Origin: Fibrobacter sp. UWB4
Lineage (GTDB): Bacteria; Fibrobacterota; Fibrobacteria; Fibrobacterales; Fibrobacteraceae
Assembly: GCF_002210345.1 (NCBI RefSeq)
Contig: NZ_MWQI01000001.1
Span: 682,001 to 746,000, forward strand
Reading direction: 5' to 3'
Length of the DNA: 64,000 bases
Shown here piece by piece: positions 3,697 through 64,000 of this stretch; the first letter of the stretch is position 1, and each line of letters opens with the position of its first letter. The notes under the pieces were generated by a model, which saw nothing but the letters and a program-made list of their open reading frames with translations, searched no databases and was not told where the DNA came from. Made by a program: the position numbers and the translations under genes.

Positions 3697-5970
3697 TTAC
3701 TTATTGTTCGCGCGGATGAGGTTGAGAGCGGAACCTGCCTTGAACCATGCCCACTGCTGTTCGTTGTAGGTGTGGCTCAGGGCTATGTTATCGACGGAGC
3801 CATCCTTGTGGTGGGCGACGAGCGTGAATTCGGAACCCGGAGCGAACTTGGTGAGGCCAACGATATCGAACACGTCCTGTTCCTGGATCTTGTCGTAGTC
3901 GGCTGCGTTCTTGAAGGTGAGGGCGAGCATGCCCTGCTTCTTGAGGTTCGTCTCGTGGATGCGGGCGAAGCTCTTCACGATCACGGCCTTCACGCCGAGG
4001 AAGCGCGGTTCCATAGCGGCGTGTTCGCGGCTGGAGCCTTCACCGTAGTTTTCGTCACCAATGACGATGGAACCCGTGCCCTTGGCCTTGTAAATCTTGG
4101 CAAGTTCAGGGACTTCCTTGTATTCACCGCACTGGCAGAGAACCTTGTTGGTTTCGCCGTTGAAGGCGTTCACGGCGCCGATGAGCATGTTGTTCGAAAT
4201 GTTTTCGAGATGACCGCGGTAGTTGAGCCACGGACCGGCCATGGAGATGTGGTCGGTGGTGCACTTGCCCTTCGCCTTGATGAGGAGCGGGGCGCCCGCG
4301 ATGTCCTTGCCGTCCCAAGCCGCGAACGGAGCGAGGGCCTGGAGGCGCTTGCTTTCGGGGTTGATGGAAACGGTGATGTTGGAACCGTCAGCAGCTGGAG
4401 CCTGGTAGCCGGCATCCTTGACTTCGAAACCCTTCGGCGGGAGTTCGCACTGTTCCGGCGGGTCGAGCTTCACGGCCTTGCCATCGTTATTCACGAGGGT
4501 GTCGGTCATCGGGTTGAAGCGGATATCGCCAGAGAGGGCGGCAATCACAGCCATGAGCGGGGAGGCAACGAAAGCGTGTGTGTTCGGGTTGCCGTCGGCG
4601 CGCTTGGCAAAGTTGCGGTTAAAGCTGTGGACGATGGTGTTGAGTTCTTTCTTGTCGGCACCGGCGCGATCCCAGCGGCCAATGCAAGGACCGCAAGCGT
4701 TTGTCATGATCGTTGCACCGAACTGCTTGAACAAGTCAATGAGGCCATCGCGTTCAGCAGTGTAGCGAACTTGTTCGGAACCCGGGTTGATGAGAAGCGG
4801 GCACTTCGGGGAAAGACCCTTGGCGAGAGCCTGCTTGATCATGTTGGCGGCCATGTAAAGGTCTTCGTAGCTGGAGTTTGTGCAAGAACCGATGAGGGCG
4901 GCGCTTACGACCGGCGTAGATTCCGGCTTGGTTTCGGTAGCTTTGAGGGAGTCTGCCATGTCGGTCACAGCGAATGCACGGTCCGGGCTGAACGGGCCGT
5001 TGTAATGCGGGATGAGCGTGTTGAGGTCGATTTCCACAACGCGGTCAAAATACTTTTCCGGTTCGGCTTCAACTTCCGGGTCGGCCTTGAGGTCGGCGGC
5101 AATCTTGTCGGCGGCATCGGCGACGTCGGCACGGCCTGTTGCGCGGAGGTAGCGGCTCATGGAATCGTCGTAGCTGAAGGTGGAGCAGGTAGCGCCCACT
5201 TCGGCACCCATGTTGGCAATCGTTGCCTTGCCGGTAGCGGAGAGGCTGCGTGCGCCTTCGCCAAAGTATTCGATAATAGCGTTCGTGCCACCCTTAACAG
5301 TGAGGATGCCGGCGAGCTTAAGGATGATGTCCTTAGCCGTTGCAAAGCCCTGGAGCTTGCCAGTGAGCTTCACGCCGATCATCTTCGGGTACTTGAGTTC
5401 CCACGGGAGACCGACCATGGCGTCCACGGCGTCTGCACCGCCCACGCCAATCGCGAGCATACCGAGGCCGCCTGCGTTCACGGTGTGGGAGTCGGTACCG
5501 ATCATCATTCCGCCCGGGAAGGCGTAGTTTTCGAGCACCACCTGGTGGATGATGCCAGCACCCGGGAGCCAGCAGTCAATGCCGTACTTGGCGGAGACTG
5601 ACTGCAAGAAGTCGTACACTTCCTTGCTTTCTTCCTTGGCGCGCGGGAGGTCCTTTTCGACACCTTCGCGAGCGATAATCAAGTGGTCGCAATGCACGGA
5701 ACTCGGCACAGCCACGCGGGACTTGCCTGCAGTCGTGAACTGGAGGAGGGCCATCTGGGCGGTTGCGTCTTGCATGGCAACGCGGTCCGGGTGGAATTCG
5801 GCAAAATCAGCGCCGCGCTTGTAGGTTCTGTTTTCTGCGCCATCGATCAGGTGGCTGTAGAGAATCTTCTCGGCGAGAGTGAGCGGGCGGCCAAGCTGCT
5901 TGCGGGCAACAGCGACGCGGGCAGGAATGCGAGCGTATGTGGCCTGGATCATGTCGAAATTAAAAAGCAT
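3697..5970 (-). CDS. acnA: Aconitate hydratase
   Basis: A 757-residue aconitase that isomerises citrate and isocitrate in the TCA cycle using a [4Fe-4S] cluster. The cluster ligands are visible in LIGSCTNSS (about residue 362) and [10 protein letters not shown] (about residue 427, two Cys). The N-terminus ([16 protein letters not shown]) and the C-terminal swivel domain ([15 protein letters not shown]) match the mitochondrial-type aconitase subfamily. The start has GAGGTAA 5 bases upstream. It is monocistronic, divergent from the lipoprotein at 6083. The gene is GC-rich with a strong codon bias, as expected for a highly expressed central-metabolism enzyme. Confidence 0.95.
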
Positions 5971-58560: not shown

Positions 58561-58615
58561 GAGGGAATGGTGGTTGCTGTTGAACAGTTCATTCGTGTCA
58601 AGGCAACCGCCTTAT

Positions 58616-58650
58616 TTGTCATTCCCGACTTGTTCGGGAATCTCCTTTTT
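58616..58650. repeat. GTCATTCCCGACTTGTTCGG palindrome
   Basis: GTCATTCCCGA and TCGGGAATCTCC pair, followed by TTTTTT, so it can terminate fcl-gmd transcription. Confidence 0.6.
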
Positions 58651-58731
58651 TGGATACCCAACCGTTTGCCAAATGGTGAATATTGCAAACCGTTGGTGAC
58701 AGAGTATTGGGCGGTGGGATAAAAAATTTGT

Positions 58732-59435
58732 ATGAAAAAAGTTCTTTCTAAAATTTGGGCTAATTTACCGTGGCTTTTTTATTTGCCTTGGACGATTGTC
58801 TTTAACTTTAAGCATCTACCTTTTAAACAGGCTTGTAAATTTCCTATTTGGCTCTATAATCCTCATTTTGGAAAATTTTCAGGAAAGGTAGTCATTTCCG
58901 GAAATGTTAAGTTTGGAATGATAAGACTTGGCGAAAAAAGAGTTTTTGTTTACCCTGGACGCGGCATTTCGATTGAAAATAGGGGTGTGATAGAGTTTTG
59001 TGGTAGATGCATAATTGAAAGTGATTCATATATATCTGTATCAAGTACAGGTTATTTAAAAATTGGTGATAACTTTGTTTCTCATGCTGCGTGTACCTTA
59101 ATTAGTCATTATAAAATGATTTTGGAGGACGATGTGTTGGTTGGTTGGGAATCTAAAATTATGGATACGGATTTTCATCGAATAAGTGTTGAAAACGGAG
59201 AACGACCTAAAGGTTATGGTGAGGTTAGGATTGGAAAGGGATGTTGGCTTGGTTTTGGAGTTATTGTAATGGCGGGGGTATTAATCCCTCCATTTTGTGT
59301 TGTTTCTGCAAAAAGCGTTGTAAAAAAAGCTTGCAAACATGTTCACCAAAAACGCTCTTGGCTGGATTTCCTGCAAAGCCTGTTAAACAGGGTGTATGGT
59401 TAAATCGTAACGATATGGATATATTATTTGAATAA
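58732..59435 (+). CDS. Hexapeptide-repeat acyltransferase, frameshifted at a poly-A tract
   Basis: Likely an O-acetyltransferase for surface polysaccharide, with left-handed beta-helix repeats (IIESDSYISVSSTGYLKIGD, VRIGKGCWLGFGVIVMAGV). The uninterrupted frame ends at 59403 with an atypical tail (KACKHVHQKRSWLDFLQ). The frame one base back, from the A7 run at 59322-59328, continues SLQTCSPKTLLAGFPAKPVK to a stop at 59435, which is the expected family ending (LLAGFPAKP). One extra A, or a -1 slip at the in-frame heptamer A-AAA-AAA, would restore it. Codon 197 sits on the tract. Confidence 0.75.
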
Positions 59436-59439
59436 AATT

Positions 59440-60972
59440 ATGCCTGAAAAAATCGGAAATAACAAGCGCGTTTTGAAAAATACAGTTTTTCTGTATGTCC
59501 GTATGTTGATTACGGTGTTTGTTTCGCTTTATACGTCGCGTGTTGTTTTACAGTATTTGGGTGTTGTTGATTTTGGCATTTTGAATGTTGTTGGTGGAGT
59601 TGTTTCGATGTTTAGCTTTATTACATCGACAATGACAAATGCATCGACAAGATTTTTTTCTTATGCGCTTGGGAAAGGGGATAAAGAAGACCTCGCTGCA
59701 ACATTTAAAACAACGATGTCTATTTATGTATTGCTCATTGTGATAATACTCGTAATTGCAGAGACTATAGGACTCTGGTTTGTTTGGAATAAGTTGAATA
59801 TTCCTCCAGAACGACATTCGGCTGCAATGCTTGTATATCAAATTTCGCTAATGATTTTTTGCTGTGGAATGCTAAGAATCCCGTATAATTCATCAATCAT
59901 TGCACATGAACGAATGAGCTTTTATGCATATACTAGTATCATTGAGGTCTCTTTGAAATTGGCGATTGTATTCATGCTTATGGTCGCCCCGTTCGATAAG
60001 TTGGTCTTCTACAACTTTATGTTCTTTTTGGTGTCTTTAGGAATAACATTCTGGTATGTGTTCTTCTGTAGAAAGTTTGAGGAATGCAAGTTTGGTTTTA
60101 ATCGGGACAAGGAAAAGTTCAAGTCGATCTTTAGCTTTGCCGGGTGGAATTTTACATCCAATATGGGTGATGTCGCTATAGACCAGGGAATTAATGTCCT
60201 AATCAATATTTTCTTTGGTCCTGCGATAAATGCTGCGAGAGGAATTGCGTTCCAAATTAAGGGACAGGTGGCTTCTTTTTGTACGAATTTCCAGATTGCT
60301 GCAGGACCGCAGATTACGAAGTATTATGCTGCTGGCGATTTGGATAATATGAATAGACTGGTTCTTCAGTCTTCTAAGATTTCATTTTATTTGATGTTCC
60401 TAGTTTCTGTTCCTACTTTTGTTGGAATGGAAATGGTTTTACAATTATGGTTAAAAGAAGTGCCTGATTACGCTCTGATTTTGACTCGATTGGTGTTGGT
60501 GAACATTGTTGTAAACTCTCTCGGTGGAACGATGAATATTGCTATCCAGGCTTCCGGAAAAATAAAAAAATATGTTTTGGCATTAACTGCAGGAAAATTC
60601 TTTACATTTGCTGTGGCTCTTGTTGCATTTAAATTTTTTGAAGGATCTCCTGAATATTCTGTTTATTGTACCATTCTGTATGCTTGCATAAGTATTTTTA
60701 TACAATGTGTCAACTATAGATTGGTTTCAAATAATTCAATTTTGCTCTACTTAAGAGAAGTTTTAGGGAAGGCTATAGTTGTTGCATTTTTGTCAATTGC
60801 TCTTGTTTATGTGTTGTATGCCAGAATTTATGATGCCGCGAATTATTTGTCGATATTATTGTTGATTGTATATTCGTTTGTTGTATCAACGATTGTTTGT
60901 TGTTGCTTTGGATTTAACAAAGACGAACGGCAGAAAGTTTTAACAATCATTCTTGGGAAATTAAAAAAATGA
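59440..60972 (+). CDS. Polysaccharide flippase (Wzx/MATE-like)
   Basis: A 510-residue membrane protein with about 12-14 hydrophobic segments, beginning MPEKIGNNKRVLKNTVFLYV and containing the usual first-helix pattern (LYTSRVVLQYLGVVDFGILN) of polysaccharide transport proteins. It would flip a lipid-linked oligosaccharide across the inner membrane. The ATG at 59440 is preferred to a TTG at 59428. AT-rich (rare codons) compared with fcl-gmd. Overlaps the next gene by four bases. Confidence 0.88.
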   Translation: MPEKIGNNKRVLKNTVFLYVRMLITVFVSLYTSRVVLQYLGVVDFGILNVVGGVVSMFSFITSTMTNASTRFFSYALGKGDKEDLAATFKTTMSIYVLLIVIILVIAETIGLWFVWNKLNIPPERHSAAMLVYQISLMIFCCGMLRIPYNSSIIAHERMSFYAYTSIIEVSLKLAIVFMLMVAPFDKLVFYNFMFFLVSLGITFWYVFFCRKFEECKFGFNRDKEKFKSIFSFAGWNFTSNMGDVAIDQGINVLINIFFGPAINAARGIAFQIKGQVASFCTNFQIAAGPQITKYYAAGDLDNMNRLVLQSSKISFYLMFLVSVPTFVGMEMVLQLWLKEVPDYALILTRLVLVNIVVNSLGGTMNIAIQASGKIKKYVLALTAGKFFTFAVALVAFKFFEGSPEYSVYCTILYACISIFIQCVNYRLVSNNSILLYLREVLGKAIVVAFLSIALVYVLYARIYDAANYLSILLLIVYSFVVSTIVCCCFGFNKDERQKVLTIILGKLKK

Positions 60973-62147
60973 TTAACAATGCTAAGAAAGATTGTTGCGG
61001 TTGTGGCGCATGCAAAGAGGTGTGTGCTAAAAATGCCATATCCTTAGTTGCTGATAACGAAGGCTTTTGGTATCCTAAAGTAGATTCTAGTTTATGTGTG
61101 AACTGTGGCTTGTGTGAAAAAGTTTGTCCTTCGTTAACGCCTCAAGAGAGTAAACTAGATAAAGCTAGTATATTTGGATGTAAAAATTTAAATGAAGATG
61201 AACAGATAAATAGTGCTTCGGGAGGAATTTTTCCTGTTATAGCAAAAAATGTCCTAGAAAGAAAAGGGGTAGTTTTTGGTGCCGCTTTTTCGAAAGACTG
61301 GATGGTCGAGCATAAGTATATTCAGTTGGAATCTGAATTAGATTTGTTGTGCAGGTCAAAATATGTTCAAAGTAATGCTTCTGTTTCATTTCCTATAGTA
61401 AAAGACTTTTTGCAGAAAGGAACCTTGGTTCTTTTTACTGGTACTCCATGCCAGTGTCTGGGCTTAAAAAATTATCTACGCAAGGATTATTCGAATCTTA
61501 TTCTTGTGGATATTATTTGTCATGGGGTTCCAAGTCCTATGGTTTGGAATCGTTATCTTAATGAAATGTCTACAAAATATGGTAGTTGTGTTGACGATAT
61601 AGAAGAAATTCGTTTTAAAATGAAGGATGGACATAGATTCCATTGGAAACATCCTGGTTTTTTAATAAAGTGGTCAAATGGTAAAGAGCTTAGAGTTTTT
61701 TCAAACGAAACAAGCTATGAGAATGGGTTTTTATCGAATTTGTTTACTCGACCATCTTGTGCGAACTGTAAAATGAAGTCCTTAGCAACAGTTTCGGATT
61801 TGACAATTGGAGATTTTTGGGGTGCTGAAATTGTTGCTCCGAAATTTATGGATAAAAATGGATTGTCTGTTGTCTTTGCTAATTCGGCGAGAGGACGTGA
61901 TTTGTTTGACGAATTAAAAACAAAACTGTCTATTTTGCCATTGCAAAAGGAGTGCGCAGTTCGTCATAACGCTAGAATCGTAAATCCCATAAAGATGCAT
62001 AGAAATAGAAACCGTTTTTTTGAAATGATTTTGCATCATTCTATTGATGAAAGTGTTAATGAATGCTTGAAAATGTCTTTTATGGAAATGGTAAGAAAAA
62101 AAATTAGTACGTTTAAACATATGTTGAAAATGGCTATTTTGAAATAA
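60969..62147 (+). CDS. Coenzyme F420 hydrogenase/dehydrogenase beta-subunit family protein
   Basis: A 392-residue iron-sulfur protein with two N-terminal cluster motifs (CCGCGACKEVCAKNA, CVNCGLCEKVCPSL) and the FrhB-like C-terminal domain (SGGIFPVIAKNVLERKG, GTPCQCLGLKNYL, DIICHGVPSPMVW, TIGDFWG). In polysaccharide loci such proteins commonly sit beside pyruvyltransferases, as here; F420 is not expected. The reaction is unknown, probably a redox step on a sugar or flavin. Confidence 0.88.
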   Translation: MINNAKKDCCGCGACKEVCAKNAISLVADNEGFWYPKVDSSLCVNCGLCEKVCPSLTPQESKLDKASIFGCKNLNEDEQINSASGGIFPVIAKNVLERKGVVFGAAFSKDWMVEHKYIQLESELDLLCRSKYVQSNASVSFPIVKDFLQKGTLVLFTGTPCQCLGLKNYLRKDYSNLILVDIICHGVPSPMVWNRYLNEMSTKYGSCVDDIEEIRFKMKDGHRFHWKHPGFLIKWSNGKELRVFSNETSYENGFLSNLFTRPSCANCKMKSLATVSDLTIGDFWGAEIVAPKFMDKNGLSVVFANSARGRDLFDELKTKLSILPLQKECAVRHNARIVNPIKMHRNRNRFFEMILHHSIDESVNECLKMSFMEMVRKKISTFKHMLKMAILK

Positions 62148-63232
62148 TGAAAATCGGAATAATATCTTCATACGCGTTCATCAAGAACAACAATAATTAT
62201 GGAGCGTTGTTGCAATACTTCGCGTTGCAAACCTATCTTCAAAAGATGGGGCATGAACCGTATTGGATCCGTACAATCGTTAGCCGCAATACGCCTTTAA
62301 ATTTATTAAGAAAGCTCTATCACTTTAAATCGTTAAGGTTGTTTGTCAATTGGATCTGCGTCCATCGTGGATTTGTAAAGTTTGTTCAAAAACATCTCAA
62401 AGTAACGGATGCTGAATACTCCAGTTTTAATGAAATTCAGCAGAATCCCCCATTTGCAGATGTTTACGTGACTGGTAGTGACCAGGTCTGGGGCAGTGAA
62501 AAACTGAAAGAAAACTACTTGCTCTTTGCACCCAAAGGTCGCAAAAAAATGGCCTATGCAGCAAGTTTTGGACGGGATTCGATTTCAGATGATATGGCTC
62601 AAACAATTAAGCCTTGGATAGATGACTTTTATGCAATCTCCGTGAGAGAATCCAGTGGTGTTGAAATTTGCAAAAAAATGGGCGTTGCCGCAGAGCATCT
62701 GATTGACCCAACGTTCTTGATAGGCTCTCTTGATTATCCGAGTTCTCACAAAAGGCGCTTTAGCAAACCTTATATCTATTGCTATTTTTTGAATGCTGGT
62801 TCCAGGGAGACTGTAAGATACGAAGAACTGAAGGCCTTTGCGCAAAGAAAGAATCTTGATCTCCGTATTTGTGCTGTTCAGGGTGCCGAAAAATTGTTCG
62901 AAAAAAAATATTTGGTTTTCCCGACTCCCGAAGAATGGCTTACCGACTATCGTCATGCTGAATATATTGTGACAAATACATTCCACGGGACTGTATTTGC
63001 TTTGATAAACCATAAGTCCTTTGCGTCTATTTTGCAGAAGGGGGCTACTTCAAAACAAAATTCCCGCTTGGCATCGTTGCTTGAAACTTTTGCTATGCAA
63101 AAACACTTGTGCTTGGATTCGGACAATTTGGATGAAGTTTTATTTAGGCCATTTGATTGGCCGATGTTTGAAAATGTGAAAAAAGGAATCGTTTCGAAAA
63201 CAGATGCTTTTTTTGAACGAAATTTGAGGTGA
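62147..63232 (+). CDS. Polysaccharide pyruvyltransferase family protein
   Basis: A 361-residue enzyme of the family that adds pyruvate ketals to sugars. Hallmarks: NNYGALLQYFALQTYLQKMG (about residues 17-36), VTGSDQVWG (about residue 107), SVRESSGVEICKKMG, and HGTVFALINHKSF near residue 280. It overlaps the previous gene by one base (TAATG) and is followed closely by the last gene, indicating one operon. Confidence 0.9.
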   Translation: MKIGIISSYAFIKNNNNYGALLQYFALQTYLQKMGHEPYWIRTIVSRNTPLNLLRKLYHFKSLRLFVNWICVHRGFVKFVQKHLKVTDAEYSSFNEIQQNPPFADVYVTGSDQVWGSEKLKENYLLFAPKGRKKMAYAASFGRDSISDDMAQTIKPWIDDFYAISVRESSGVEICKKMGVAAEHLIDPTFLIGSLDYPSSHKRRFSKPYIYCYFLNAGSRETVRYEELKAFAQRKNLDLRICAVQGAEKLFEKKYLVFPTPEEWLTDYRHAEYIVTNTFHGTVFALINHKSFASILQKGATSKQNSRLASLLETFAMQKHLCLDSDNLDEVLFRPFDWPMFENVKKGIVSKTDAFFERNLR

Positions 63233-63239
63233 TTTGTTT

Positions 63240-64000
63240 ATGAACAGAATATTTGTCTTTGTTTTGAAGGTCTTGCGAAAGCAGTTTCGAAAGAATCGTA
63301 ATGATCCTTTTTCTTGGCTCACAGATTCTTATTGCCAATATAAGGACCAGAATGCGAATGACTATATATTGAATCGCTTGAATCGCTATCAAGGTGGAGG
63401 CTTGATGCTTGCCAAGTGGGGGACTATTGAACTGAATCAAGTAATTGCCACTTATATGGCGAGACAAGGGTATTCTATAAATGATTATAAAGAAATGATT
63501 CAAGGTATTGTTCCAATTCCAGAAAACAAGCCAAATTTTTCGCTTTATAATAATGCAGGTGTTTTCCCGGCAACAGTCGAAATTGCAAACCGTTTCGCAA
63601 GAAAAGCTATGGAAGATTGCAAGTCTATTGATATTCTTGCTTCATATATGCATAACGAACATCGCATTGCTGAATTACAAAAAAATGCAACATGCGTAAA
63701 TCTAGATCCTTACTATGCGCCGTGGCTTTTTGAAAATCCGTGGACCAAGTGGCTTGAAGGGAAACGTGTTCTTGTTGTTCATCCATTTATTGAAAGTATC
63801 AAGTATCAGTATGAAAATAACAGGACAAAATTGTTTAAAAATCCTGACGTGTTGCCCTTGTTTTCTAATATTCAGTATATAAAGGCCGTTCAAACTCAAG
63901 CTGGGGAACAGTCTCAGTTCAAGGACTGGTTCGAGGCTTTGAACTATATGGAACAAGAAATAGACAAGAAGGAATATGATGTTGCGATTATTGGCTGTGG
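63240..64000 (+). CDS. Putative glycosyltransferase-like protein, truncated by the window
   Basis: Starts at the ATG at 63240, 7 bases after the pyruvyltransferase, and is open to the right edge (253 residues seen). Blocks such as KWGTIELNQVIATYMARQ, LEGKRVLVVHPFIESIKYQ and EYDVAIIGCG resemble the GT-D type (DUF1792) glycosyltransferase fold, where a nucleotide-sugar is handled near VLVVxPF. I am not certain of that family. Part of the AT-rich polysaccharide operon. Confidence 0.6.
   Translation, partial: MNRIFVFVLKVLRKQFRKNRNDPFSWLTDSYCQYKDQNANDYILNRLNRYQGGGLMLAKWGTIELNQVIATYMARQGYSINDYKEMIQGIVPIPENKPNFSLYNNAGVFPATVEIANRFARKAMEDCKSIDILASYMHNEHRIAELQKNATCVNLDPYYAPWLFENPWTKWLEGKRVLVVHPFIESIKYQYENNRTKLFKNPDVLPLFSNIQYIKAVQTQAGEQSQFKDWFEALNYMEQEIDKKEYDVAIIGC

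Follow-up and report, generated by a model that had tools for sequence, protein, structure and literature searches.

Does a run of seven adenines near the 3′ end of a Fibrobacter acyltransferase gene switch the modification of a surface polysaccharide, or does it adjoin an ordinary loss of the reading frame? We analysed this gene within a window of Fibrobacter sp. UWB4 DNA (the whole stretch that was analysed, 64,000 nucleotides; coordinates refer to it unless another locus is named), together with its homologues and the cluster in which it lies. A first-pass annotation of the same DNA had described a tract after which a −1 slip restores the usual end of the protein family, and had explained it by phase variation or programmed slippage. 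That observation is correct; its interpretation is too strong. The features discussed below are as follows.

58732–59403, + strand: frame-0 open reading frame of an LbH (hexapeptide) acyltransferase, Hexapep match at 165–198, last ~24 residues non-homologous
59322–59328, + strand: A7 run in phase A_AAA_AAA, from the third base of codon 197 to codon 199
59319–59355, + strand: interval holding the frame break according to the family profile, containing A7 and an A5 run (59348–59352)
59328–59435, + strand: −1 frame segment encoding the usual family C-terminus, stop 59433–59435; matches LLAGIPATVKKNGIYRNRKNDKIIID of a homologue from an F. succinogenes MAG (L010/L040)
59440–60972, + strand: Wzx-type flippase (weak MATE-family match), ATG 4 nt after the −1 stop and 36 nt after the frame-0 stop
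60969–62147, + strand: FrhB/FdhB_C ferredoxin-like protein, same cluster
62147–63232, + strand: polysaccharide pyruvyl transferase, same cluster

An acyltransferase gene with two possible C-termini

Sequence matches indicate that the gene probably encodes an LbH O-acyltransferase of surface-polysaccharide clusters. The hexapeptide-repeat beta-helix that marks these enzymes is found with Pfam, NCBIfam, PDB and AF2: the PF00132 (Hexapep) match has an E value of 6.4e-4 and lies below the curated cutoff, as do the NCBIfam WbbJ/LacA-like matches, and the AF2 model of the frame-0 protein is a beta-helix (mean pLDDT 82.8) whose beta strands exceed a pLDDT of 90 over much of residues 21–140. Among PDB chains, the likeness to 2wlc (polysialic acid OAT), 3srt (maltose OAT) and 1kqa (galactoside OAT) is one of sequence over residues ~96–199, whereas residues 1–95 are unmatched by these chains and the frame-0 protein is without the family C-terminus. 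The contig search places homologues at 55 loci, in Fibrobacter MAGs, in Bacteroidales and in some further phyla. The gene heads a surface-polysaccharide cluster, which bears out the surface-glycan setting first proposed for it, and the flippase, FrhB-like and pyruvyl-transferase genes that accompany it in the window have relatives close to the homologue at several other loci.

The A7 tract has exactly the position and phase that had been ascribed to it, within the codon context GTA AAA AAA GCT, and starts at the third position of codon 197. Frame 0 specifies 223 amino acids with the C-terminus ...VVKKACKHVHQKRSWLDFLQSLLNRVYG and a stop at 59401–59403. The −1 frame instead reads ...VVKK followed by SLQTCSPKTLLAGFPAKPVKQGVWLNRNDMDILFE, with a stop at 59433–59435, four bases 5′ of the flippase ATG at 59440; the family ending LLAGFPAKPVK reported there was recovered, and the profile score rises to ~254 bits when it is included. 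This −1 tail retains the terminal G-V/I-W/Y...D motif of the family, and the last C-terminal coil (AGxPxK-like) is absent from frame 0 and encoded in the −1 frame only. The frame-0 protein keeps the conserved Asp145/His149 region and misses the last coil with its AGxPxK motif; we take both elements to have roles in activity. The peptides SWLDFLQSLLNR and TLLAGFPAK would distinguish the frame-0 and −1 tails, respectively.

It is extremely unlikely that the frame-0 tail has newly evolved into a functional C-terminus and that nothing is broken. About 24 codons remain open past the tract and the model predicts a terminal helix at residues 209–222, but the tail is modelled at low confidence (pLDDT 50–67), the matches examined contain no homologue of it, and the −1 frame, which on this account goes unread, stays family-like for about 26 codons. 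The intact homologue L040 was modelled at a mean pLDDT of 51.0, against 82.8 for the frame-0 protein, and this poor model makes a structural comparison uninformative on the lost coil.

Position of the frame break and frequency of A7 tracts

Homology shows that the reading frame is broken near its 3′ end. Frame-0 homology stops at residue 197–201 in nearly all matches and at residue 209 at the latest (G019), as read from 150 relatives (50 with a match) and 62 homologues. Two of the homologues (L066 and L092) are cut by contig ends, which leaves 60 that can be evaluated; five of these are broken elsewhere, by a frame switch in L067 (at a G9 run), L088 (near an A8 run), L089 and L090 and by an in-frame stop in L041, and the remaining 55 formed the intact set used for resampling and for counting tracts near the site. 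L010, L011 and L012 duplicate L040, L046 and L054, and each gene was counted once. A family profile built from 16 of the 62 homologues scores frame 0 at 231.0 bits and a switch to the −1 frame at A7 at 253.6 bits. When 20 homologues at a time were drawn at random from the intact set to build 40 profiles, the −1 frame gained 18.0 ± 2.0 bits over frame 0 (range 14.1–21.7, positive in 40/40). None of the 60 evaluable homologues is broken at this place. The gene accordingly shows what marks a frameshift pseudogene, a singleton break with intact homologues elsewhere.

Attempts to pin the break to A7 by homology fail: −1 junctions throughout 59319–59355 score 251.9–254.8 bits, within about 3 bits of one another. 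The highest single score belongs to the A5 run at 59348–59352 (254.8 bits), and the difference between A5 and A7 is +0.7 ± 1.2 bits in favour of A5, positive in 27/40 resamples; the best junction is A5 in 27 of the 40 and A7 in 9. A 2-nt shift fits less well than a 1-nt shift, with a best score of 251.4 against 254.8 bits. On the profile scores, the break may therefore sit at A5 rather than A7. What favours A7 is only its prior mutability and the fact that the gene's one run of at least seven falls inside the interval, a coincidence expected about 6–7% of the time by our own arithmetic.

As a tract, A7 alone is not more than chance would provide. The probability of a run of at least A7 in this coding sequence is 0.40 by codon-order shuffling and 0.55 under a first-order Markov model, and 22 of the 62 homologous coding sequences contain one. 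The window has 33 homopolymers of at least seven, and A7–A8 runs also lie within the flippase, FrhB-like and pyruvyl-transferase genes. Three of the 55 intact homologues (L064, L074 and L087) carry an A7–A8 run within a few codons of the site, in frame. An alignment of four sequences shows no variation at K199, which lies at the tract, so that the adenines are in part a matter of coding constraint. By these counts (chance 40–55%; 22/62 homologues), the gene has no over-long or over-represented repeat tract of the kind found in SSR contingency genes.

Phase variation and recoding at A7

Slipped-strand mispairing at A7 could in principle toggle the C-terminus, and with it glycan O-acylation, reversibly. 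The product is a surface-modifying acyltransferase, and the only run of at least seven in the gene coincides with the ~36-nt break interval at the 6–7% chance given above. Elsewhere the gene shows no stops or frame breaks, which implies that the frameshift event is recent or that the product continues to be used. In Listeria monocytogenes inlA a tract of comparable length is reported, where the gain or loss of one A breaks the frame and an A6/A7 tract changes reversibly at about 1e-7 (PMC2831843), so that slow reversibility is conceivable here. The inlA tract, as reported there, lies at the 5′ end and comes with population data and measured reversion, whereas the tract here lies at the 3′ end and is known from one genome. 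Against switching, A7 runs are common in the family, mostly in open genes and partly from conserved lysine codons; this one is short and located at the 3′ end; the three intact homologues with A7–A8 near the site are simply in frame; and the break is perhaps elsewhere than A7. Judged by their listing, none of 11 literature matches appears to deal with phase variation in Fibrobacter, and our analysis contains no evidence for an on/off switch role. We regard such a role as distinctly unlikely.

A programmed −1 shift by the ribosome, or slippage during transcription, would instead yield both C-termini from one allele. The heptamer A_AAA_AAA is indeed present in the correct phase, as in the −1 heptamers A_AAA_AAA/G of IS elements and others (PMC4066793), and there are precedents for low-level or tract-driven rescue: the best unstimulated V_VV.A_AA.G heptamers are reported to shift at ~0.3% in E. 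coli (PMC4066793), and Citrobacter tssM is described as rescued by an A11 tract (PMC4256274). Unlike those −1 heptamer systems, this site lacks stimulators and conservation, and its family has no two-product architecture. RNA folding is unremarkable (z −0.35 for 59329–59400 and +0.63 for 59290–59410), giving no sign of a stimulatory RNA structure; no SD-like motif was seen by eye in 59300–59321; and, as noted, the break is conserved in 0/60 evaluable homologues. By the account in PMC1088944, moreover, selection against slippage-prone runs becomes evident mostly from 9 nt, which is longer than A7. A programmed recoding system is unlikely at this locus, and we assign the production of both C-termini in this way very little probability. 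The first-pass explanation by phase variation or programmed slippage is thus not upheld for a tract that is short and common, unaccompanied by stimulators, not matched by a break in the 60 evaluable homologues and rivalled by A5 as the site of the break.

Probable frame loss within an exchangeable cassette

The explanation that we prefer, at a probability of roughly 60%, is that 58732–59435 carries a loss-of-function frameshift allele or early pseudogene of a surface-polysaccharide O-acyltransferase within an exchanged cassette; it is argued from sequence comparison. Taking the assembled sequence as correct, a single indel from replication slippage in a short run of adenines, A7 (59322–59328) or A5 (59348–59352), would most likely have cost the gene its frame. 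Loss of the frame would remove the last beta-helix coil and hence, presumably, activity, leaving the cell without one O-acetyl group on its surface polysaccharide, and occasional ribosomal slippage may yield traces of the full-length protein. Against this explanation, the gene at this place is known from one genome, the rest of it carries no further damage, and the frame-0 product continues to be modelled as a beta-helix, with a low-confidence tail. The change looks like an ordinary loss of function in a fast-changing gene cluster.

Pneumococcal capsule genes offer the nearest parallel. In the O-acetyltransferase genes wcyO (33F-1) and wciG (35D, 33H), single-nucleotide indels in homopolymers are reported to arise repeatedly and to abolish acetylation, a loss described as demonstrated for 33H and inferred for 33F-1 (PMC6218050, PMC11934437). 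Those claims are backed, in the same reports, by Sanger sequencing, several isolates and serology or NMR, whereas the present case is one genome's sequence from a commensal genus, with a break near the 3′ end. The mutation, if real, would be a Fibrobacter counterpart of serotype change through loss of O-acetylation, placed in an exchangeable cassette, and pressure from phages or immunity on the O-acetyl group is a possible reason for it. The locus also carries a caution, in that a frame break adjoining a short A run does not alone demonstrate phase variation.

A homopolymer error in sequencing or assembly, with the true gene intact, is unlikely, if still the alternative that deserves most weight. 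By the GeneTack criteria a singleton break denotes either an indel mutation or a sequencing error, and homology-supported singleton frame breaks are expected to be mostly errors, as stated in PMC3711429. We have a single assembly with a break near a homopolymer, and a neighbouring gene is likewise broken beside T6 and A7 runs. Against an error, the assembly comprises 18 contigs at 99.99% completeness, and homopolymers of at least seven in the genes at 59440–63998 leave their frames open. In the conserved flanks, none of 124 relative ORFs (at least 120 amino acids, identity at least 60% over 70% of length) matched in the sequence of this genome shows a frame switch; some of these ORFs overlap in antisense and some genes enter twice, once from each of two relatives, so that the 44,412 unique bases they cover are the fairer measure. 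This speaks against a generally error-prone assembly. As a control for homopolymer errors it is weak, since the control bases hold 10 homopolymers of at least seven against 28 in the cassette, and with 14 bases of the cassette covered by close relatives, errors specific to AT-rich DNA could still occur there.

The cassette itself spans window position 58600 to about G000:C1:755500, between conserved fcl-gmd and WecG-side flanks, with the acyltransferase gene at its head. GC content drops from about 0.47–0.50 to 0.32–0.37 in the cassette. The flanks (fcl-gmd, and from about L117:11700 on) are 79–94% identical to G046 or G052, which are the closest relatives at fcl-gmd (92% and 94%, respectively) and both carry other genes at the place of the cassette. 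Beyond the window, the cluster continues with a GT-D-like protein, Wzy, AT3, several glycosyltransferases, another LbH protein and WecG/TagA. On our preferred reading the cassette is AT-rich, horizontally exchanged and of the Wzx/Wzy type, and its acyltransferases are decaying. Of two contig scans for a sister strain, the first returned 0 relatives and the second 55, none near enough; a plasmid search gave three distant matches only. Upstream of the gene, window 58610–58662 holds a dispersed repeat with the hairpin core ATTCCCGACTTGTTCGGGAAT, which has 32 further matches in the same genome.

Damage in the cassette appears to fall on acyltransferase genes. Just past the window, the AT3 acyltransferase gene at L117:4221–5212 (G000:C1:746221–747212) is broken by two stops between its matching halves, which score 82.7 and 42.2 bits, with a middle stretch at 3.2 bits in another frame; the halves match intact relatives of 325–330 amino acids, open frames of 328–337 amino acids are seen in relatives, and the breaks adjoin T6 and A7 runs. 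An LbH acyltransferase piece of 92 amino acids at L117:9557–9835, between two glycosyltransferases and with an A8 run upstream, looks 5′-truncated. The AT3 gene at L117:6432–7505 and the LbH gene at L117:10953–11585 are seemingly intact. In all, 3/5 acyltransferase genes are damaged against 0/8 others (hypergeometric 10/286 = 0.035), a post hoc comparison from one locus in which open frames and family matches were the sole grounds for calling the eight intact, and which we treat as a lead. It is a rather improbable extension of this lead that glycan acylation in Fibrobacter is selected for loss or switching, two of the breaks, near short homopolymers, acting as slow reversible switches and leaky slippage at A_AAA_AAA giving a low, partial acylation.

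Two further observations concern surface-glycan loci at large. In the window (60969–63232) and at L054, L055, L063, L087 and L124, an FrhB/FdhB_C ferredoxin-like gene has a polysaccharide pyruvyl-transferase gene close by, the pairing at L124 being judged from translations. Runs of G9–G10 occur in surface-glycan loci at L067:2526–2534, L090:161–169 and 4749–4757, L070:5846–5854 and L071:6536–6545. By title, none of the best 10 of 143 literature matches deals with poly-G tracts in Lachnospiraceae. Three of these runs (the one in L067 and the two in L090) lie where two open frames overlap in Lachnospiraceae-type MAGs, and they are much better candidates for phase variation than the A7 tract in the window.
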